This document shows, in pieces, positions 1,039-26,899 of a DNA stretch of 45,162 nt. The DNA is from a virus. Made by a program: the position numbers and the translations under genes. The stretch lies in IMG/VR virus record IMGVR_UViG_3300023174_000274, positions 1 through 45,162 of that record; one strand, written 5' to 3'. The first letter of the stretch is position 1, and every line of letters starts with the position of its first letter. Below the pieces are notes generated by a model. That model saw nothing but the letters and a program-made list of their open reading frames with translations. It was not told the origin of the DNA and did not search any database.

Positions 1039-2583
1039 TCACTCAATGTGGATCTTGCCGCGCCGACAACTCTGGTCCAGCAAGATCTGGAGGGCGTCGG
1101 CGCAGTCGTCGTGCTGGCTGTTGCCCAGGTTCACGATCTCGTCAAAAACCACGCGGAAGTCCCGGTACTTGTTGAAGACGACCTTGCCTGTCTCGAACAG
1201 GCCCATCACGCCGCGGAACCGGGCAAGCTTGTCCCCTCGGACACCCGACACCGGCGAGACGCGCAGGTTGAACAGTGGCTGGCGGACCAAGCTGGACTCC
1301 CGATGCGCGATCCGCTTGAAGTCGCCCTCGAACGACTTCTGATAGGCAACGGCCTCCGGCCAGATCGTCACGTCCGAACCGGTCGGCAGGTAGCGGCCGT
1401 CCGAATCCTGGTCCAGCAGGTTCCATTCATGCAGCAGCTCGCACAGGGCCTCGACCTTCTCGATGTTGCCCATGCTCTTGATCCGCCGTTTGTCGATGAC
1501 GTAGAAGGTGTCTCCGTCCAGGCCGCCCAACATGAAGACCGTGAAGTCGTTGCGCTCCTTCAGGCCGGACGAGAGGTCCATGCCGACGCCAATTAAGTCG
1601 AATTGATCGGGAATCTGCCCGCGAACAAACAGTTCTGGCGAGATACCCAGCTCGGTGGAGCGGACCGCGCGGTTCATGTACTGGTAGGCAAACGAGACCC
1701 GGTCTTTCTCCTGGAGGTCCATCAGGTACTCCAGTGACCACCATTCCGGCCAGTAGGACCGCGGCACGCCCTCGTCGTCGTACATCAGCGCCGCTTGGAC
1801 CATGACCTTCCAGCCGTTGCGCTCGATGAACGTCGTCGCAAAGACGTCGTCGAAATGGAAACGAGTACCCAGGGCGATCGCCCGGGCGCCCTGGAACATG
1901 GTCGGAACGATGACGCTGTTCCAGTTGGCCTCCATCTCCCGGCGAATTTCTGGGTTGTCGATCGACTTCTTGGACTTGATCAAGTCGTCCAGCACGACCA
2001 GGTTGGATCGCTTCGAGGTGATCGCACCGGCCAAGCCAGCGCAAGCCAGCGTGAAGGCGTCTTCTCCTCGGACGTCGATGTCGGCATGCTCAAAGTCAAT
2101 CGACCAGAGCTCGTCGCTGGTGCGGGTCTTGGACAGTCGGACGCAGGGGAAGATCTCCTGATAGGCGTCCGAAAGGATCGTGTTCTTAATGGCGGCGCTC
2201 TTGCCGCGCGCCACGTCCACAATGAACGAGACGTAGAGGATCCGCAGCAGCTTCTTGGCCAGCGTGTGCCGTCCAATGCACCAAGCCAGTAGCAGGCCGA
2301 TCACGGTGCTCTTGGCTGACCCTCGAGGGCTCAACAAGCAAGAGTCCGGCCCGGCAATGTCAAGCAGGTGTTCGTTGCTGTCCCCGGTGACAAGCTCGCG
2401 GTGCCACTCCAGCATGTGCGCGGCCGCAGGCTTGCCCATCGCCGTACAGAACGCCCCGAAGTCCTCGCGAGCCCGTTTGACGCGTTCGCTGACGACCTCG
2501 ATGTCAGCCTTGGATTGCGGAACGCGGCGCGCTACGAGACGCCCAGAACGTTTGTGTGCCCTGACGAGCGCGAGATCAGCCAT
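1039..2583 (-). CDS. terL: Terminase large subunit (packaging ATPase/nuclease)
   Basis: The 514-residue protein is the motor that pumps DNA into the prohead and cuts concatemers. The N-terminal ATPase has a Walker A variant SPRGSAKST (about residues 85-93) and a Walker B VVLDD in the middle of the ATPase domain. The C-terminal half has the RNase H-like nuclease signatures: GVGMDLSSG with the first catalytic Asp, and a late HDDCADAL with the final acidic pair. Length is normal for the family. Start ATG 2583. The small-subunit candidate ends 21 nt upstream and the portal begins 60 nt downstream, so the three form one leftward packaging unit. Confidence 0.95.
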   Translation of the reverse strand: MADLALVRAHKRSGRLVARRVPQSKADIEVVSERVKRAREDFGAFCTAMGKPAAAHMLEWHRELVTGDSNEHLLDIAGPDSCLLSPRGSAKSTVIGLLLAWCIGRHTLAKKLLRILYVSFIVDVARGKSAAIKNTILSDAYQEIFPCVRLSKTRTSDELWSIDFEHADIDVRGEDAFTLACAGLAGAITSKRSNLVVLDDLIKSKKSIDNPEIRREMEANWNSVIVPTMFQGARAIALGTRFHFDDVFATTFIERNGWKVMVQAALMYDDEGVPRSYWPEWWSLEYLMDLQEKDRVSFAYQYMNRAVRSTELGISPELFVRGQIPDQFDLIGVGMDLSSGLKERNDFTVFMLGGLDGDTFYVIDKRRIKSMGNIEKVEALCELLHEWNLLDQDSDGRYLPTGSDVTIWPEAVAYQKSFEGDFKRIAHRESSLVRQPLFNLRVSPVSGVRGDKLARFRGVMGLFETGKVVFNKYRDFRVVFDEIVNLGNSQHDDCADALQILLDQSCRRGKIHIE

Positions 2584-5606: not shown

Positions 5607-6494
5607 CTACAAGCCTGCGCCGATTCTAGGCGGCAGATCCTGTCCATCTTCGGCCATGTATTTTGGCCTCACCGGCTCCGTCCAAGGCACCAATTCTGAA
5701 GAGTTGGCGATCGTGCGATCGAGCTTCGGGCAATAGACGGACCCAGGGGCGCCCGGGCGGGGATCGATACACGCTGTGCAGGCATGCACGTAGTCGATGT
5801 TGTGCAGCCGATTCGGATCCTCGATCGGGTGCCCAAGGTCAGGATCGATGAGCCGGTAGCGCTCCCGGTCGTAGGGCACGTTGTACGCCTCGATGTAGTG
5901 CCAAACGTCCGCATCGCTCCAGTCCCGCAGCGGGAACAGGGCCATGGCCCCATCGGCGCGCATCACGGCGTCCACCTTGGTGCCGGCCGGGCCGCCCAAC
6001 ACGGCATCAGTGTCGCACTCCTTGTGCCCGATCCAGAACGCCTGGAGCGGCGTATGTGCGTTCAGCCCCTCCTGGGTCGGACGGCGTGCCATCTCAACCG
6101 CGCAGACCCAGGGCTCTTCCCTGTCCTCGCCGGCGGGACCGGGGCCGCGGTGCGTGATCCCCGTGGGGCAGGAGAAGCTGCCGCCATTCAGCCGGTAGAC
6201 GTTCTGCAGTTCGAACTCATCACCATGCGACTGGAAGGCGACCAGGCTCGGGTGCCAAGAGATCACCTGCAGTCCCCAGTCCCGGATCAACCTGTCATGA
6301 AAAGAGTACCGGCGCGGCTGCCATGGCTCGCGGAAGAAGATCACCGGCGGCTGGAACCCGAGGTCGTGTAACAGGTGCAGCAGAACCATGGAGTCCTTGC
6401 CGCCCGACCACAGCACCGCGTTCAGTGGGAACGATTCGTGGCCACGCTCAATCAGCGCCAGGGTCCGATCAACGCGTCGGGAGAAGCCGTCCAT
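5607..6494 (-). CDS. PAPS-reductase-family (PP-loop) protein
   Basis: A 295-residue adenine-nucleotide alpha-hydrolase-like protein. The PP-loop SGGKDS is at about residues 30-35 (LWSGGKDSMVLL), and the later FPLRDWSDADVWHYIE is the typical helix of CysH/CysD relatives. A Cys-rich region in the C-terminal third (ACTACID, YCPKL) may bind metal. Cellular relatives reduce activated sulfate or modify nucleic acids; phage versions have no settled role. It sits inside the virion operon, ATG 6494 only 4 nt after the upstream stop. Alternatives are a DNA- or tRNA-thiolation-like enzyme. Confidence 0.85.
   Translation of the reverse strand: MDGFSRRVDRTLALIERGHESFPLNAVLWSGGKDSMVLLHLLHDLGFQPPVIFFREPWQPRRYSFHDRLIRDWGLQVISWHPSLVAFQSHGDEFELQNVYRLNGGSFSCPTGITHRGPGPAGEDREEPWVCAVEMARRPTQEGLNAHTPLQAFWIGHKECDTDAVLGGPAGTKVDAVMRADGAMALFPLRDWSDADVWHYIEAYNVPYDRERYRLIDPDLGHPIEDPNRLHNIDYVHACTACIDPRPGAPGSVYCPKLDRTIANSSELVPWTEPVRPKYMAEDGQDLPPRIGAGL
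5621..5630 (-). promoter_or_regulatory. Late-promoter-like motif CCTAGAATCG
   Basis: Minus-strand CCGCCTAGAATCGGC, about 25 nt before ATG 5596. It lies inside the last codons of the PAPS-reductase-family gene, so the motif is kept even where it must be compatible with coding. Confidence 0.5.
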
Positions 6495-9444: not shown

Positions 9445-12400
9445 CTACGGAAGGAAGCCCATTTGCTCGACCTGGGGCGTCACGGTGCGCTGAGCGCCTG
9501 CAGCAGTGGCTCTCCTGCGGGCGGCGGCCCGGCTGGCCAACCTTTCGGATGGGTCAGCACTCACGGGAAGCCGCACCACGCTGTATCCAGCGTTGCCGCC
9601 TTCGCTGGTGCCAGCGAAATCGCTCCACATGGGTTGCCGGTCGCCTAGCCCCAGCTCTTCAGGATCAAATTGCGGCTCGGAAGTGCCCACTTCGGGCCTC
9701 GCCAGCACTTCCCGCAAGGAAGTGACTGAACGGAAGGGGCGTTCCTGACCAACAAAGCTGTACCCGCCCTGCTCCTGGCTGGGGCGGTTGGGAGACGTCC
9801 GAACCAGTGCAAACCCCCTGCCATCGATCGTGCGACGCATGGCTGCGTCGTAGTCGGCGAGCGTTGGATCCGGCAGGGCGCGCGGGATCGAATCGGGGTC
9901 GAACCCAGGGATCATTGGCTGCGAAGGGTCTACCGCGGAAGACGCGTACTGCCCGGATCGCGCGGCCCTCTCCATGACCTCGCCCAGTGAAGGGCCTTGC
10001 GGCTCGCGCCGGCGCAGCCAGGGGGCGCTCTGGACGCCTTTGAGCGCGCCAGGGATCGCCGGCTGGACGTAGTAAGCGCGGTTGGCCAGGGTCTGCGTCG
10101 CGTCGAGGAGCCGCTGAGTCGATGTTGAGGTCCGCAACCCCGCGCCAAGGGCAACGTCGAAGACCCCGGGAACGACTGGGCTGGCAAACTGCTCGAAGCC
10201 CCCCGTAATGGGCGCTGCGGCGTAGTCGGCTCCCTGGTAGGAGGCAATCGCGTCCAGCAGCTCCAGGGTGCTCCATCTCTCAGGATTTAGCCGGGGATCT
10301 TTTTCGACGAACTTGCGAACCCCGGGTTGGTCCGAGAGCAGGCCCACTCCCTGGAAATTGCTGCTATGGAGCCCCTTGTCCCAATCTTGCTTGGGAACCT
10401 TGATCCAGCGCTCTTGCCTGCTCGAGAGGGCTGGGACCTGGACGCCGCTGTTCCCGCCGCCTTTCTTCTTTGTTGTCCGAGGGATCAGGTAGCCAGCATC
10501 AGAGCCATCGGCGCTGCTGTAAGCGATCATTCCGTTTTCGTCCGGTTCGGACAGCGCGTATCCGGCTTCTTTTGCTTGCAAGATGTCGAGGTCGCTGGCT
10601 TTCTGCAAGGCGTTTCTGTTTTCTCTGCCGTAATTCTTGTGGTCTTCTTCTTGGAATCTTGCAACCCGCTCTGGCGTTGACAGCTGGATTGTTTGAGCAT
10701 ACTTGCCGCCAGTGACTCGGCCGAGTTCACCTAGTAGGGCGTCGGTGTTCCTCTTTGTTGGCCAGCCGATGCGGAACAAGTCCGTTGGGCGCCCCTTCCT
10801 GTCCAGCACGTTGTAAACCGGCAGTTCGGCCTGGACGGCATGGGTCCGCAAGTGAGCGGGAAGGGCGGCGTTTGATTGGACGGCAGCACGGACCTCGGGC
10901 AGGTCAAGCCCCTGGAAGACGGGATCTACGATGCCGTTTTCGTCTATTCTCACTGTCCGACGAATACTTCCCACGAGGCTATCTCCCTCTTGAATGTCTT
11001 CGCTTGCCTCGCGAGGAGTAAACGAATCAACCGGGAAGCGATTGCCGTCGTCGAGGGACTTGAGAAGTGTATTGCCGTCGTCGAAAAATGACCCCTTGAA
11101 AGCGGGCGTTTTGTATTTATCGTTTAATTCTCCAATGAGCTTGGCAAGCGAAACGTCCTGCTGCCTCTCCCAGGCGGCCGTGCTGTCGGGATCCATTTCC
11201 CTGGAAAAGACTGTTTCCAGGGGATCGACTCGCATTGTGCCGTACTGCCCCTGTTGATCACGAGCGGCAAGGGTCAGCATGTCGCCAGTTGCGGCGCGGC
11301 TCTCCCTGCTGTCAATTTCAACCGCTGGGGGAACGGTCCGCTCGTAGGTGTTTCCTGCCCTTTTTGTCGTGTACGGATCGCCTGCTTTTTTGATGAGTTT
11401 GCGCCACCTGGATTGCGCTCCCAGCCCCTCATACCGGCGCAAGTCTCTTGGGGTGCGGACCTCGTCGATCAGATCTTCGCGACCCGCGCTCCTGAGTGCC
11501 TGGATCACTGGACTTGGCGTTGGCTCGAAATAGCGTTCATCCCGTGGTGCGCGCTTCTCCATGGCGCGATCTCTTGCGTTTGCGTAGTCATGCAGAACGT
11601 TCTGCTCAACCTGGAGGATGTCACTTCCATCGGCCGCCAAGTTGATCAGGTAACCCCTACTGCCGTCGGGCCTTTCATAGGTGTGCACGTCGGACCTGGT
11701 TGCAGGGCTCGCTGTGTCACCAAGGGCAGTTGCAACCGGGACTGGCTGGACGGCGTAGCCGGCGGCTATTGCTTGATTGACGTCATCTTGCGAGATCCTT
11801 CTTCCTTGGTTAAATGTTCCTCTTAGCACGTCTCGGCGAATTGCATTGGCAACTCCTCCAGGCTCCATGCCGGTCTTGCGGTCAAACACTTTGGCAGGGG
11901 GTAGCTCGGTACTCCTCTTCGTGGGCCAGCCGATAAGGCCGTCTTCACCGGTCGTGGCGTACGGCAGGCGGATTGCGCCACCTTCGCCGGGCGAGGGGGT
12001 GTAAATGCTGCCCAGGGGGTTCCCTTCCGCCACTGCTTGAATTGCGCGCGCTACGCTGCTTTCCCCTCTGGCTGCGTATGTTGCCGGGTCAAACAGCAGC
12101 CCCTGAGTCGAATAGCCAGACCTTCGGGGCGCTGGCTGGCCGACGCGCGCCATGTCGGCGTCGGGATTGACTGCGTACGTGGCCGTATTGAACAGCAAGG
12201 GTTGATTTGGGTTTTCCCCCGGACTGACGACCTGCTTACTGCGCCAGGGGCCAGGGTTCTGGAAGCTTGGCTTTGGGGGTTTCGTCGAATCAAACTTTGA
12301 CGGCTGCGGGTCGTAGTACGCAGGGGAATGCCTGACGGGTTCGGAAAGCGCTAAGGCCTCGAAAGCCTCTTGGGACGGCGCGGAAGGGTTTTTGAGGTCA

Positions 12401-12654
12401 AATTCGGAGCGTCTGACGGTTTCGGGCTCCGCTGGGATTCCCTTGGCGACTAGGTATTCCCTGGCCTCCCCTGAGCGCTGCGCATTGCGCTCGGCAAGCC
12501 GTCGTCGAATCAGCTCAGCATAGCCTCTGATTGCAGCCGGCTCGTCATACCCGGGCATGCCGGGCGCAGCGGGGCCCATAGGCCTTGGACCGAGCCTTCT
12601 GCGGGCGTCACCGGGGTCGCCAATGTCCCGAAAACCGCCGATTCGCCTCGCCAT
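9445..12654 (-). CDS. Large putative virion protein (1069 aa)
   Basis: The largest protein of the window, with no family I recognise. It is polar, rich in Arg/Asp/Pro and short on hydrophobic segments. Internal repeats are visible: LLFNTATYA and LLFDPATYA near residues 150 and 190, and GWPTKRST / GWPTKRNT further on. The N-terminus is Pro/Arg/Gly-rich. Size, position at the head of the leftward block and mosaic repeats suit an internal or tail-associated particle protein. Start ATG 12654 faces the 0.7-kb divergence region. It could also be a polyprotein-like substrate; no protease or enzymatic motif was seen. Confidence 0.72.
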   Translation of the reverse strand: MARRIGGFRDIGDPGDARRRLGPRPMGPAAPGMPGYDEPAAIRGYAELIRRRLAERNAQRSGEAREYLVAKGIPAEPETVRRSEFDLKNPSAPSQEAFEALALSEPVRHSPAYYDPQPSKFDSTKPPKPSFQNPGPWRSKQVVSPGENPNQPLLFNTATYAVNPDADMARVGQPAPRRSGYSTQGLLFDPATYAARGESSVARAIQAVAEGNPLGSIYTPSPGEGGAIRLPYATTGEDGLIGWPTKRSTELPPAKVFDRKTGMEPGGVANAIRRDVLRGTFNQGRRISQDDVNQAIAAGYAVQPVPVATALGDTASPATRSDVHTYERPDGSRGYLINLAADGSDILQVEQNVLHDYANARDRAMEKRAPRDERYFEPTPSPVIQALRSAGREDLIDEVRTPRDLRRYEGLGAQSRWRKLIKKAGDPYTTKRAGNTYERTVPPAVEIDSRESRAATGDMLTLAARDQQGQYGTMRVDPLETVFSREMDPDSTAAWERQQDVSLAKLIGELNDKYKTPAFKGSFFDDGNTLLKSLDDGNRFPVDSFTPREASEDIQEGDSLVGSIRRTVRIDENGIVDPVFQGLDLPEVRAAVQSNAALPAHLRTHAVQAELPVYNVLDRKGRPTDLFRIGWPTKRNTDALLGELGRVTGGKYAQTIQLSTPERVARFQEEDHKNYGRENRNALQKASDLDILQAKEAGYALSEPDENGMIAYSSADGSDAGYLIPRTTKKKGGGNSGVQVPALSSRQERWIKVPKQDWDKGLHSSNFQGVGLLSDQPGVRKFVEKDPRLNPERWSTLELLDAIASYQGADYAAAPITGGFEQFASPVVPGVFDVALGAGLRTSTSTQRLLDATQTLANRAYYVQPAIPGALKGVQSAPWLRRREPQGPSLGEVMERAARSGQYASSAVDPSQPMIPGFDPDSIPRALPDPTLADYDAAMRRTIDGRGFALVRTSPNRPSQEQGGYSFVGQERPFRSVTSLREVLARPEVGTSEPQFDPEELGLGDRQPMWSDFAGTSEGGNAGYSVVRLPVSADPSERLASRAAARRRATAAGAQRTVTPQVEQMGFLP

Positions 12655-16012: not shown

Positions 16013-16252
16013 ATGATCCTCGAGATTTTTCTCGGGCGCATCGCCTATGGCCCCGCCATGGGCAACGCCCGCCACCTCAGGCGCATCGCACGCGCCGTCG
16101 AGCGCTCCCACCCGGGTGCTCGGGTCGTCCTCTCTCCAGAGGACGGCTACAGGCCCTCTCAGCTCGCCGCTTTGGCGGCTATCGCCGATGACGGCGAGCG
16201 CGCCATGCGCGAGCTGATGAACCAACCCACCACCCCCAGCACCAATGACTGA
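16013..16252 (+). CDS. Unknown protein (79 aa)
   Basis: Starts [17 protein letters not shown] at ATG 16013 after a long pyrimidine leader (ccctctctccccactctctcttc). Mostly helical and basic in the middle ([16 protein letters not shown]). It overlaps the pentapeptide gene by 8 nt. No family recognised. Confidence 0.62.
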
Positions 16253-16853
16253 CTACGCCCCCATCCTTGCCGAGCACGCTCAGTGGCTGGCTGATCCCGC
16301 CACCGGGCAGCGCGCCAACCTGCGCGGCGCCAACCTGCGCGGCGCCGACCTGTACAGCGCCAACCTGCGCGGCGCCAACCTGCGCGGCGCCAACCTGCGC
16401 GGCGCCAACCTGCGCGGCGCCAACCTGAGCGGCGCCGACCTGTACAGCGCCAACCTGAGCGGCGCCGACCTGAGCGGCGCCGACCTGTACAGCGCCAACC
16501 TGAGCGGCGCCGACCTGGGCGACGCCAACCTGCGCGGCGCCAAGCTGAGCGGCGCCAGCGGGCTCCCTGTCGTTGCTGACTCTGCTGAGCGGCTAATCGC
16601 CGCAGCGGCAGCTGCAACGGCTAAGCCCGACGCCCTCGAGATGGAATCGTGGCACACCTGCGACACGACCCACTGCCTTGGGGGCTGGGCCATTCACCAG
16701 GCGGGACCGCTTGGCGCCGTCCTGGAGCAAACTCTCGGCGCTCCAATCGCTGCTCTTCTGCTGCTTGGGCCTGAGGCTCAGTCCCACTTCTGGGACAGCA
16801 GGGAGGACGCTCTGGCCTACCTCCAGTCCGTCCTGGACAAGGCCAAAGCATGA
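16245..16853 (+). CDS. Pentapeptide-repeat protein with WHxCxTxHC C-terminal domain
   Basis: Residues about 23-102 consist of some 16 A(N/D)LxG repeats, which form a right-handed beta-helix; related proteins can mimic DNA. The rest is a second domain with [14 protein letters not shown] and [14 protein letters not shown]. That same domain recurs in the protein at 23998. Fusions of pentapeptide repeats with this domain are seen in phages and bacteria; the function is not known. It overlaps both neighbours (ATGACTGA and ATGA). Confidence 0.88.
16315..16555 (+). repeat. 15-nt tandem repeats encoding pentapeptides
   Basis: Tandem 15-nt units of the type GCCAACCTGCGCGGC/GCCGACCTGAGCGGC run through the gene and are very similar at DNA level, including synonymous sites, which suggests recent expansion. 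Confidence 0.85.
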
Positions 16854-22618: not shown

Positions 22619-23701
22619 ATGTCCCACGAGTTCACCTCCGGCGTCTTTGCTCACGACACCAAGGCCTGGCACGGCCTCGGCGACGTCATCACCGGCACCC
22701 TGCCGGCTGACGAGATGTTCCGCCGCGCCCAGGCCCTCTTCCCGGTCGAAACCCTTCAGCTCCACGCCGGCGACATCGATAGCCCGGCCCTCCTTGACGC
22801 CGTCACCCAGGCCGCCGACCGGCCCTTCAGCTCCCCCGAGGAGCGCGGCATCGCTATCCATCGCGCTCTTGAGCAGCACCTGCTCTCGCTCAAGGAAAGC
22901 CGCGTCGGCATCTGGCGCCCCGACGAACGCAAGATCCTCGGCACCGCCAGTCCTGGTTACCGGGTCATCCCCAACCAGCGACTGCTTGACTTCGCTCAGG
23001 CGATCCGCGAGGAAGCCGACATGGACGCTTGCGTCGTCCTGCGTGGCGGCGCCAAGGTGGCCTTCACGGCCAGGATCCGCGGCACCGACCAGCAGGTCGT
23101 ACCCGGCGACAAGGTGCACCGCAACATCGTGGGCTACCTCGGTCATGACGGCTCAACCGCTTTTGGCGGCATGTTCACCGACATCCGCGTCGTCTGCGCC
23201 AACACGCTTGGATTCGCAATGACCGACGCCAGCCGCCATGGCCGGCAATTCACCATCCGCCACACGGACAACGACGTCGCCCAGATCGACGGCATCCTCC
23301 AAGACATCGACATTGCCCGGCAATCTTTTGCCGCGGTCCTCAGCGACTACCAGGCCATGCAGGCCACGCCGATGAGCGTTGACCTGTACCGCCACTGGCT
23401 GGAGCAGGTCTACCAGGTGCCCGACGTCAAGCTCGACGGCGGTGACACCCGCCCCGGCCGCATCGAGGACATGCCCCGCAAGTGGGCCCAACTCGAGCGT
23501 GCCTGGCACTACGGCCTTGGCCGCGACATCCCCGGCGTGGCAGGCACCGTCTACGCCGGCCTCAATGCTGTTACCGAAGTCGAGACCTCGATGAAGACGC
23601 AAGGCGCCGGCAAGCGCCGTCTCCACTCGACCCTATTCGGCGCCGGTGCCGGCGTCGTGCGCCGCGCCAACGAGCTGGCCCGCGAACTGGTAACGGCATG
23701 A
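22619..23701 (+). CDS. DUF932 family protein (360 aa)
   Basis: Matches the DUF932 / phage-plasmid-like TIGR03299 family in layout: WHGLG near residue 17, YRVIPNQRLLDF near 118, a VCANTLGFA segment near 200, and a C-terminal helical region. Length is typical. Such proteins are found widely in phages and plasmids, often near recombination genes; no biochemical role is settled. The start follows a pyrimidine-only leader. Stop overlaps the next ATG. Confidence 0.9.
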   Translation: MSHEFTSGVFAHDTKAWHGLGDVITGTLPADEMFRRAQALFPVETLQLHAGDIDSPALLDAVTQAADRPFSSPEERGIAIHRALEQHLLSLKESRVGIWRPDERKILGTASPGYRVIPNQRLLDFAQAIREEADMDACVVLRGGAKVAFTARIRGTDQQVVPGDKVHRNIVGYLGHDGSTAFGGMFTDIRVVCANTLGFAMTDASRHGRQFTIRHTDNDVAQIDGILQDIDIARQSFAAVLSDYQAMQATPMSVDLYRHWLEQVYQVPDVKLDGGDTRPGRIEDMPRKWAQLERAWHYGLGRDIPGVAGTVYAGLNAVTEVETSMKTQGAGKRRLHSTLFGAGAGVVRRANELARELVTA

Positions 23702-23960: not shown

Positions 23961-23981
23961 GGGCCGTCTCGTGGGCGGCCC
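23961..23981 (+). terminator. Hairpin before next unit
   Basis: GGGCCGT-CTCGTGG-GCGGCCC followed by TTTCC. A terminator or leader structure; it lies 16 nt before ATG 23998, much like hairpin B. Confidence 0.4.
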
Positions 23982-23997
23982 TTTCCTTGTCTCTGCC

Positions 23998-24540
23998 ATG
24001 ACTGACACATCAGACACAACGAATCCCTTGCGTGACTATCGACTGCTGCAGTTCGCAAGGGAAATGCTGGAGCGCTTTTCTAAAGAAACCTACGCCGGCC
24101 GCCTGCGACGCAGGGAGCTCTTCAACAGCGACCGCACCGCTCGCAACATCCTCTCCGATTACGACTTTGACGAGCTCGACGAGGAAGCCCAGCGGCAGGT
24201 CTTGCTCAACCTTGAGGAGATCCCAACCCTGGCGCCTGCGGCCAGTGAGGCGCTTCTACTCGAGGTCGCACGCCAAGCCCTCGGCTCGGACAACGCCCTC
24301 AACATGAAGTACTGGCACAGCGATGGCGATTTCGGCTGCGCGCCCGGCTGCGGCACCTCTCACTGCATCGCCGGCTGGGCAACCACCGTCGCCCGGGAAG
24401 CAGGGGTGCTCCTCGAGAACGAGTTCGGCACACGCATCGCCGGCGCCATGCTCCTCGGCCCGGAAGCCACGGCCCATTTCTTCGACAGCCAGGAAGGCGG
24501 CGAGCGGTATCTCCAATCCGTCCTCGATCGCAACACCTGA
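23998..24540 (+). CDS. Protein sharing the WHxxxxxxHC domain (180 aa)
   Basis: ATG 23998. N-terminal 90 residues helical and charged; C-terminal 80 residues contain YWHSDGDFGCAPGCGTSHCI and LLGPEATAHFFDS, matching the C-terminal domain of the pentapeptide protein at 16245, with an insertion that adds Cys residues. A metal-binding site of W-H/C/H-C type is plausible. The two genes are paralogous through this domain only. Confidence 0.75.
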   Translation: MTDTSDTTNPLRDYRLLQFAREMLERFSKETYAGRLRRRELFNSDRTARNILSDYDFDELDEEAQRQVLLNLEEIPTLAPAASEALLLEVARQALGSDNALNMKYWHSDGDFGCAPGCGTSHCIAGWATTVAREAGVLLENEFGTRIAGAMLLGPEATAHFFDSQEGGERYLQSVLDRNT

Positions 24541-24574
24541 TCACTCCTCCTCTTTGTTCCCTCAATCTTTCCTC

Positions 24575-25921
24575 ATGGCCAAATTCCAACTGACCATCAG
24601 CTCCGATTACGTCAGCGACTGGAGCGCCTACGAAGGCGTCCGTGAGTCCATCCAGAACGCCCTGGATGGCAGGGATGCCGGTCATCCCATGCACATCCGT
24701 CATAACGGTGACACCCTCAACATCGCCAACTTCGGCGTCAAGCTCGACCGCTCCGTCTGGCTGATGGGCAGCACCAACAAAGCCGGCACCGATGCCCGCG
24801 GCCACTTCGGCGAGGGGCTCAAGCTCGGCGCTCTCGCCCTGGTCCGCGCTGGCCGCAAGTTGCGCATCGTCAACGACGACGAGGACTGGCTCTGCACCCT
24901 CGAGGACTCCAAGGCCTTCCCGGGCCAACAGGTCCTGACCGTCACCACCCGCAAGCGCCCCACCCCACTGGGTGCCTTCTCGGTCCAGGTCCTCTGCTCC
25001 GAGGAGGAATGGAGCAAGTGGCAGGACTCATTCATTGACCTCAAGCCCAAGGCCTTGAAGTCCATTGCCGCCGGCGGCGTCCAGATCCTCACCGATCCCA
25101 CCGAGCGCGGCCGCTGCTACGTCAAGGGCATCTTCGTGGAGGAGAAGCCGGACCTCTATGCCGGCTACAACTTCAACCGCGACGTTCGCACTGATCGCGA
25201 TCGCCGGGTGATGAACTCCTTCGATTTCGACTTCCACGCCGGTAACGCCTGGATCAGCGCCCTCACTGATGGAGAGATCACTCCTCTCGGCATGCTGGCC
25301 ATGCTGCAATCAGCGGCGCCAGATGCCAAGGCAACGGGCGATCGCTACTGCCCCGCTTCCGGCATCGAGGCCGTCGGCAACGCCTGGACTGCCCTCCATG
25401 GCGCTTCTTCCGTACCTGTCCTCGATCAGGCCGGCGCCACCGAGGCCGGTCACTACGGCCGGATCGGCATCATCGCCAGCCCCGCAACCTGTGCCTTCCT
25501 TGACGATCACCCAACGCTGAGCCTCAAGTCCCTGCGGGCGGCGAAGCGCAACGACGTCACGGCCACCTACGGCCTGAGCGATCTCACCTACGCCGAGCGC
25601 GCGGTTTACCAAGCCGCCATCGAAGTCATCACCCCCACGCTCAACTCCATGGGCATCACGCCCATCGCACCCCGGCTCAGCCTCGTCGACTTCCAGTGCG
25701 ACGACGTCCTGGGCCTGCATCGCTTCAACCGAGAAGAATCCGTGCACCAGGTCCTGGTCGCCCGGCGCACCCTCGACTCTCTCCCCCGCTTCCTGCAGGT
25801 GCTTGTCCACGAGATCGCTCATGATTTCGGCGGCGACGGCGAGGTTGCGCACGAGCGCGCCGAAGGTGAGATCTTCTCCAAGGTCATCAGCCGGCTGCTC
25901 GATGCCGCCCTGGTCGCATGA
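24575..25921 (+). CDS. GHKL ATPase with C-terminal HEXXH motif (448 aa)
   Basis: Start MAKFQLTISS at ATG 24575 after a pyrimidine leader; the longer reading frame overlaps the upstream gene. The N-terminal 110 residues carry the Bergerat fold motifs: E24-x3-N28-x2-D31 (VRESIQNALD) and GHFGEGLKLG (residues 76-85). Middle domain unknown. Near the C-terminus HEIAH (412-416), followed by DGEVAHE, forms a zincin-like HEXXH site. This joins an ATP-dependent conformational module to a possible metalloprotease. Substrate unknown. Confidence 0.85.
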   Translation: MAKFQLTISSDYVSDWSAYEGVRESIQNALDGRDAGHPMHIRHNGDTLNIANFGVKLDRSVWLMGSTNKAGTDARGHFGEGLKLGALALVRAGRKLRIVNDDEDWLCTLEDSKAFPGQQVLTVTTRKRPTPLGAFSVQVLCSEEEWSKWQDSFIDLKPKALKSIAAGGVQILTDPTERGRCYVKGIFVEEKPDLYAGYNFNRDVRTDRDRRVMNSFDFDFHAGNAWISALTDGEITPLGMLAMLQSAAPDAKATGDRYCPASGIEAVGNAWTALHGASSVPVLDQAGATEAGHYGRIGIIASPATCAFLDDHPTLSLKSLRAAKRNDVTATYGLSDLTYAERAVYQAAIEVITPTLNSMGITPIAPRLSLVDFQCDDVLGLHRFNREESVHQVLVARRTLDSLPRFLQVLVHEIAHDFGGDGEVAHERAEGEIFSKVISRLLDAALVA

Positions 25922-26112
25922 CCGGCGGCGCCTTGCGACAAGTTGGGACGCCCTGCCCCGACTGCGGCTCGATCGAGCGCGGCCCAGGCGCGCAGCAATG
26001 GTCGATCAGATCGATCGCATCGAGCGCAGCCTTGCCGTTCTCAAAAGAAACCTACCCCCTGTCAGTCAATGAGCGACCACCTGCCCCCGGGCTTTCACAC
26101 GACGCAGCTTGA
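25918..26112 (+). CDS. Small ORF with CPDCG motif, uncertain
   Basis: ATG 25918 overlaps the upstream stop. The start reads like a zinc ribbon (VGTPCPDCGSIERGPG) but the second CxxC is missing and the C-terminal third overlaps the next gene. A different frame contains MVDQIDRIERSLAVLK ending in TGA at 26072. One of the two, or a shifted fusion, is likely real. Confidence 0.38.
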   Translation: MTGGALRQVGTPCPDCGSIERGPGAQQWSIRSIASSAALPFSKETYPLSVNERPPAPGLSHDAA

Positions 26113-26341
26113 CACCAGCGAAGCCACCACGGTCTACGTCAATCGTTTGAAACGCAAGGCGTACCGAGTCAAAGCTATCGGCGAAGGGCTCCTCAGACTT
26201 CTTGATGCAATCGAAGACGAGGAATGTTTCGCGTCAGACGCTCTTGCTTCTATTGAAAATCATGGCAGAGAGCTGCACGACCTGTCAATGATTGCTCATA
26301 CCGCTGACTTCAAGTATCTCCATCACGTTCTTCACTCCTGA
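26069..26341 (+). CDS. Unknown helical protein (90 aa)
   Basis: ATG 26069 overlaps a TGA. A helical protein with an acidic centre (GLLRLLDAIEDEECFASDAL) and His-rich C-terminus (FKYLHHVLHS). No family recognised. Its codon use is less GC-biased than its neighbours. Confidence 0.65.
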   Translation: MSDHLPPGFHTTQLDTSEATTVYVNRLKRKAYRVKAIGEGLLRLLDAIEDEECFASDALASIENHGRELHDLSMIAHTADFKYLHHVLHS

Positions 26342-26344
26342 TTC

Positions 26345-26899
26345 ATGTCCCGTAACAACTGGACCCCCGTGGTCCTCGACTTACTGCACCTGCTCACCGA
26401 GGAGGGCGGCGCCCGCCTCCTTTGGGTTGACGACGGCGGCAGCACCACGCACCTGCCACCGCCTTCCCCCGATGCCGACCGTTCGTCGATCCGCCTGCAA
26501 GCCGCCGCAGCTATCGCCGCTGTCGATGCGTCCACCCTGCAGATCATGTTGGACGGGAAATTAGCCCTGCTTTCGATCGTCCTGGGCAACGAGCCCGAGG
26601 AGATCGTCCAAGACTGGGTTGCCCCCAACTGCACAACCATCTACTGGATGCTGGAAGCGATCACCCGCAAGTTCGCCAGTCAGTGGGAGGGCAAGATCTG
26701 CCCGGTCATCCCCGACCAGTACCGCTGGTCGCATCCCTACGCCTGGCTCCAAAGCGTGTCAGCGGAATGGGACCGCGAACGACTTCTACACGAAGTCCAT
26801 CGCCTCGCCTTGCAGCACGATTCCGATTCACTGCAAGACCTCTATCAGGGCGAAATGGAGAGAGACGGCTACTACGACCCACTGCCTCAGGCGACATGA
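26345..26899 (+). CDS. Unknown protein (184 aa)
   Basis: ATG 26345, 3 nt after the previous stop. A helical protein with repeated aromatic segments (YWMLEAITRKFASQWEGK, SHPYAWLQSVSAEWD) and an acidic C-terminus. No family recognised. ATGA overlap with the small gene downstream. Confidence 0.7.
   Translation: MSRNNWTPVVLDLLHLLTEEGGARLLWVDDGGSTTHLPPPSPDADRSSIRLQAAAAIAAVDASTLQIMLDGKLALLSIVLGNEPEEIVQDWVAPNCTTIYWMLEAITRKFASQWEGKICPVIPDQYRWSHPYAWLQSVSAEWDRERLLHEVHRLALQHDSDSLQDLYQGEMERDGYYDPLPQAT

Follow-up and report, generated by a model that had tools for sequence, protein, structure and literature searches.

A phage-borne protein family joining a Bergerat-fold ATPase to a zincin domain, a candidate nucleotide-gated metalloprotease

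Background

A 448-residue protein encoded by an uncultivated virus combines in one chain an N-terminal ATPase domain of the GHKL type and a C-terminal zincin-like domain. This architecture was pointed out in an earlier note on the strength of an E-x3-N-x2-D motif, a GHFGEG motif and a C-terminal HEIAH, all of which are present, and it is now borne out by conservation across a family of relatives, by solved structures matched in profile searches with either end of the protein and by confident structural models. We consider the best explanation overall to be a metalloprotease gated by nucleotide, perhaps with DNA-associated proteins as its substrates, a reading for which we find about as much reason for belief as for reserve.

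Gene and domain architecture

The gene lies in IMG/VR record IMGVR_UViG_3300023174_000274, a 45,162-base viral record with tailed-phage genes that was analyzed over its whole length and is here called the window. Apart from the terminase listed below, the products of the window include a Gp157-like protein, a DUF932 protein, a phage exonuclease and a GP88-like protein. It also encodes a PAPS-reductase-like protein (5607-6494, minus strand), likely an auxiliary metabolic or DNA-modification gene, an ORF rich in NLRGA-type pentapeptide repeats (16245-16853, plus strand) and a 1069-residue ORF of coding-like composition with no PHROG match (9445-12654, minus strand).

The features of the ATPase-zincin gene, along with the terminase, are as follows:

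1039-2583, minus strand: terminase
24575-25921, plus strand: ORF of 448 residues with GHKL ATPase, transducer-like domain, helical linker and zincin
24575-24904, plus strand: Bergerat-fold ATPase domain, approximately residues 1-110 (PHROG 6077, profile and Foldseek matches)
24644-24667, plus strand: N box, E24-x3-N28-x2-D31, with the catalytic Glu and Mg-binding Asn (conservation)
24728-24742, plus strand: non-canonical G1 box, N52-F-G-V-K56 (sequence comparison)
24800-24817, plus strand: lid motif (G2 box) GHFGEG, residues 76-81 (alignment)
24905-25264, plus strand: transducer-like domain, approximately residues 111-230, with R208-D209-R210 (R210 conservation, Foldseek)
25265-25570, plus strand: mostly helical linker domain, approximately residues 231-332 (AlphaFold2 secondary structure)
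25571-25918, plus strand: zincin domain, residues 333-448 (AlphaFold2; Wss1 the best match by profile and fold)
25808-25822, plus strand: HEIAH, predicted zinc-binding motif, residues 412-416 (invariance in 55 sequences)
25835-25837, plus strand: D421, candidate third metal ligand (53 of 55 sequences)
25850-25852, plus strand: H426, alternative candidate third ligand at the start of the C-terminal helix (37 of 55)

The ATG at 24575 is the right start, since the coding signature begins there (GC at the three codon positions 0.65/0.45/0.83, coding-like from 24575 on) and a frame extended beyond it runs into the preceding gene at 23971-24540; the alternative start at 24323 is ruled out by the codon-position GC of the extension 24323-24574, which is not coding-like. 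Close relatives begin at the same methionine.

Searches with the single 448-residue protein gave no family match in Pfam and nothing useful among PDB sequences. PHROG 6077, a family of unknown function, covers residues 1-231 (E 3.9e-39); the match ends at residue 231, position 234 of the 366 in the profile, and leaves the zincin outside it. The same PHROG is matched by all 55 members of an alignment of zincin-bearing sequences. A profile of the family recovers topoisomerase VI-B, HSP90, MORC2 and MutL at its N-terminal end, and Wss1, M48, proabylysin and Spartan at its C-terminal end. Modeling of the whole protein by AlphaFold2 with the family alignment gave a pLDDT of 93.3 and a pTM of 0.78. 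Foldseek searches with the N-terminal part of this model recovered TRAP1, MORC4, topoisomerase VI-B and MutL with probability 1.00, the alignments to TRAP1 and MutL running past the ATPase domain.

Among viral models, the same searches recovered uncharacterized phage proteins and RIIA. One could accordingly picture a RIIA-like GHKL protein that shields the phage against exclusion or defence by its host, and in which the zincin is one of many variable C-terminal effectors, here cleaving a host defence protein, and one short relative is indeed annotated as a RIIA lysis inhibitor. Nevertheless, the RIIA PHROG matches just one of the 55 members, the window protein not being that one, the named RIIA fold matches are longer (approximately 574-887 residues), and there is no RIIB among the scanned neighbors (22619-23701, 23971-24540 and 26345-26899, the ORF at 25943-26341 lying outside the scan). 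We therefore regard the RIIA-like role as unlikely, and membership of the window protein in the RIIA family itself was rejected, there being no RIIA sequence match for it. A known defence protein was likewise rejected as an identity: PADLOC gave weak similarity to 'TmtA' models for 29 of the 55 family members (best 6.6e-8) and none for the window protein, and a TmtA system was not found in the literature searched.

The ATPase half and its altered G1 box

Invariant columns in the alignment of 55 zincin-bearing sequences comprise G65, G76, G79, E80, G81, R210, H412, E413 and H416, and thus include the lid motif, an arginine of the transducer-like domain and the HEXXH. The N box is nearly as constant, with E24 kept in 54 sequences, N28 in 52 and D31 in 54.

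The G1 box is a different matter. GHKL proteins typically have D-x-G-x-G at this position, the aspartate of which contacts adenine, and this canonical form is absent from the window protein, in which asparagine stands for the aspartate and the second glycine is missing too. All 30 members of the clade that includes the window protein have N, S or T at the aspartate position; the aspartate is kept in 28 of 31 zincin-bearing relatives outside this clade and in only 1 of 56 zincin-less relatives. In HSP90 the mutant D79N, the equivalent of having N52 in the window protein, fails to bind ATP. The altered box casts doubt on ordinary ATP use in the window clade, where nucleotide binding or the choice of base may differ; an asparagine in place of the aspartate could suit another base. 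In a more radical form of this argument, the GHKL domain of the clade would not use ATP normally at all, serving as a scaffold or binding another nucleotide, with the zincin as the working part. The replacement of the aspartate throughout the clade and the loss of the second glycine in the window protein favor such a view, but the clade has kept the catalytic glutamate, the Mg-binding asparagine and the lid glycines, a combination hard to explain without nucleotide turnover, which makes it distinctly unlikely in our judgment.

Distribution and history of the family

Similarity to the window protein was detected in 98 GenBank phage records, mostly in the N-terminal half. The phage and Pseudomonas-plasmid relatives whose full-length sequences were inspected are mostly of 350-411 residues and have no HEXXH, while a C-terminal HEXXH is present in Moorella phage MTATph1, two megaplasmids and Exiguobacterium phage vB_EalM-132. 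A scan of viral contigs with a zincin-domain pattern gave a single locus, and relatives were gathered through ATPase patterns instead. Scans of viral and genome contigs for open frames with the lid motif yielded 132 distinct frames, 71 with a C-terminal HEXXH, 58 without and 3 cut off, a census biased by full-length queries that favor full-length relatives and including some near-duplicates or doubtful frames. The median number of residues after the lid motif is 371 in zincin-bearing proteins under 560 residues versus 284 in the others, indicating that one group has a domain that the other lacks.

The pairing of ATPase and zincin is found again in phages, megaplasmids, Clostridia and DPANN archaea. 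Cellular genomes have the gene rarely and sporadically: searches located it in 6 of the 188 from one DPANN class and in 2 of the 145 from one Clostridia family. Several plasmid and cellular versions, one of them archaeal, have two or three ATPase modules followed by one zincin (L016, L017, L203-L206 and L210), which is what an engine acting in pairs would predict. In an unrooted tree built by a quick method from the ATPase regions of 117 proteins, the zincin label changes 4 times versus approximately 39 with shuffled labels, pointing to a long evolutionary linkage of the two domains. As D-x-G-x-G is the general GHKL state, and its aspartate is kept mostly by zincin-bearing relatives outside the window clade, the root probably lies among the zincin-bearing relatives; on this sequence-based reading the short phage proteins probably descend from zincin-bearing ancestors and have lost the domain.

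The coupling of the two halves is not strict everywhere. The homolog in Exiguobacterium phage vB_EalM-132 (L225:5983-7296) keeps an HETIH but has lost the aspartate of the N box (QNAVF), and may be a protease whose ATPase is inactive; a relative with two ATPase modules from a Melainabacteria MAG (L204, frame 3336) reads SEEKAH in place of HEXXH, its zincin being a probable inactive version. Three relatives (L032, L038 and L039) have an extra C-terminal tail beyond the zincin, which in L032 and L039 gives a weak, below cut-off match to a MazE/AbrB-like Pfam family, a possible DNA-binding addition.

The zincin domain

Modeled alone, the zincin domain attains a pLDDT of 97.0 and a pTM of 0.88. 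The model consists of a helix, three strands, an active-site helix and a C-terminal helix, in that order, which is the minimal zincin topology; HEIAH is thus predicted to fall in the active-site helix, in agreement with the metalloprotease assignment of the earlier note. Foldseek places Wss1 (5xbn) at the top (TM 0.62, probability 1.00), followed by selecase, with CapP lower; the E-values of these zincin matches are 0.02 or weaker, though the probabilities of the leading Wss1 and selecase matches are high. A sequence profile of the domain also matches Wss1 (1.9e-5). In Pfam, SprT-like hints are seen in 15 of the 55 members, with 17-21.5 bits in three relatives against a cut-off of 25.6 and no match for the window protein; WLM is weak in 2 of the 55, and MPTase-PolyVal matches weakly in only one (E 0.017).

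Long homologs retain the HEXXH together with the Bergerat motifs: H412, E413 and H416 are present without exception in an alignment of 55 sequences whose identity to the window protein falls to 17%, on a par with the G-box of the ATPase. Within the zincin segment, dN/dS among the three closest relatives is approximately 0.1-0.35. The further H/E pair that the earlier note saw past HEIAH calls for a correction. The residue kept throughout the family is D421, one position off the histidine of the HELTH...PHD segment of Wss1 in the profile alignment; H426 is constant in the subfamily of the window protein (alignment A5), where HEXXH-x4-D-x4-H is invariant, and is less widespread in the family as a whole.

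That zincin-less relatives are common implies that the ATPase module is useful by itself, and allows that the zincin might be a structural or substrate-binding metal site in an HSP90-like chaperone or conformational clamp devoid of protease activity. There is a precedent in ArdC, whose protease activity is dispensable for antirestriction, so that a zincin of phages and plasmids need not act by cleavage. Against this, the catalytic glutamate of HEXXH is invariant in all 55 sequences and a structural site would not need it, leaving a purely structural role very unlikely. The chance of a spurious motif in an ordinary ATPase is negligible: HEXXH does arise in 1.8% of shuffled copies of the 448-residue protein, but its invariance across 55 sequences refutes this, as does the confidently predicted zincin fold around it.

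Genomic neighborhoods

In the window, a gene for a DUF932 protein (PF06067, E 1.8e-30; 22619-23701, plus strand) lies upstream of the ATPase-zincin gene, and a DUF932-related ORF is found near it in 11 compared loci, distant relatives included. Other neighbors encode DNA replication or repair proteins: 1) a UvrD-type helicase adjoining the gene in L031 and L037, with a related ORF in L043; 2) a Prim-Pol overlapping it in L041; 3) an SNF2 helicase and clamp loader nearby in L040; 4) a ligase, exonuclease and UvrD near the homolog in vB_EalM-132; 5) a helicase, SSB and dUTPase near that of MTATph1. In most relatives from the window clade the scanned neighbors are of no known function. Early phage genes often sit close to replication genes, which weighs against reading a role on DNA into these associations. 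The earlier suggestions that the protein cleaves a host factor or senses invaders receive no direct support, and the context points rather to DNA replication and repair modules.

A potential nucleotide-gated clamp

We propose that, like its counterparts in HSP90, MORC and topoisomerase VI-B, the N-terminal GHKL domain would bind nucleotide, close its lid and dimerize. The transducer-like domain could then relay this closure by way of the invariant R210, and the C-terminal zincin would in turn cleave a protein gripped by the closed dimer. We lean slightly toward the view that the protein is an intact protease under nucleotide control. The likeliest substrates would be proteins on or near DNA in phage replication, such as host DNA-binding proteins, roadblocks or protein-DNA crosslinks, given that the zincin fold is nearest to Wss1 and that several relatives have replication and repair neighbors. 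This DNA linkage, drawn in part from a modeled fold, is a weaker surmise than the nucleotide-gated zinc protease, and we offer DNA-associated substrates only tentatively. Similarly tentative is the broader picture of a widespread family, in phages, plasmids and some cells, in which a Bergerat engine and a protease in the same chain form a nucleotide-gated clamp on DNA-bound proteins, with the nucleotide preference perhaps changed in one clade.

To our knowledge, the known ATP-dependent proteases (Lon, Clp, FtsH and the proteasome) use AAA+ motors. If the above proposal is true, a zinc protease coupled to the conformational cycle of HSP90 or MORC would depart from that design; it would also provide a function for part of PHROG 6077 and add a protease to the DNA-replication toolkit of phages. 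Because the pairing of the two domains turns up in many phages unrelated to one another, in large plasmids and in some bacteria and archaea, the family is a promising candidate for a type of protease under nucleotide control that has yet to be studied.

Comparison with known systems

Like T4 RIIA and its orthologs, the window protein begins with a GHKL domain and ends in a C-terminal part specific to phages, and the folds are similar across the ATPase and transducer parts; it differs in being shorter, in carrying a zincin and in giving no RIIA PHROG match. MORC, topoisomerase VI-B, MutL and HSP90/TRAP1 share the Bergerat-fold ATPase and transducer but not the altered G1 box of the window clade, and we know of none of them fused to a zincin. 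A fusion of GHKL and zincin domains is not described in the accessible parts of the literature searched, which had most subscription journals outside it, and is likely, though not certain, to be new.

Zincins borne by phages and conjugative elements are known in the MPTase of polyvalent proteins and in ArdC (PMC5512222, PMC7213743). These differ from the window family in their weak or absent family match to it, and no GHKL partner is described for them in the available portions of those texts.

For the zincin, the closest solved structure belongs to the Wss1/SPRTN (SprT-like) proteases of DNA-protein crosslinks. The zincin of the window family differs from theirs in falling below Pfam cut-offs where checked and in its conserved D421 near the position of the third ligand of Wss1. 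Wss1 cleaves DNA-binding proteins in a DNA-dependent fashion and works with the ATPase Cdc48 (PMC6945406). Whereas Wss1 and SPRTN use Cdc48/p97 in trans, the window protein has an ATPase in the same chain as its zincin.
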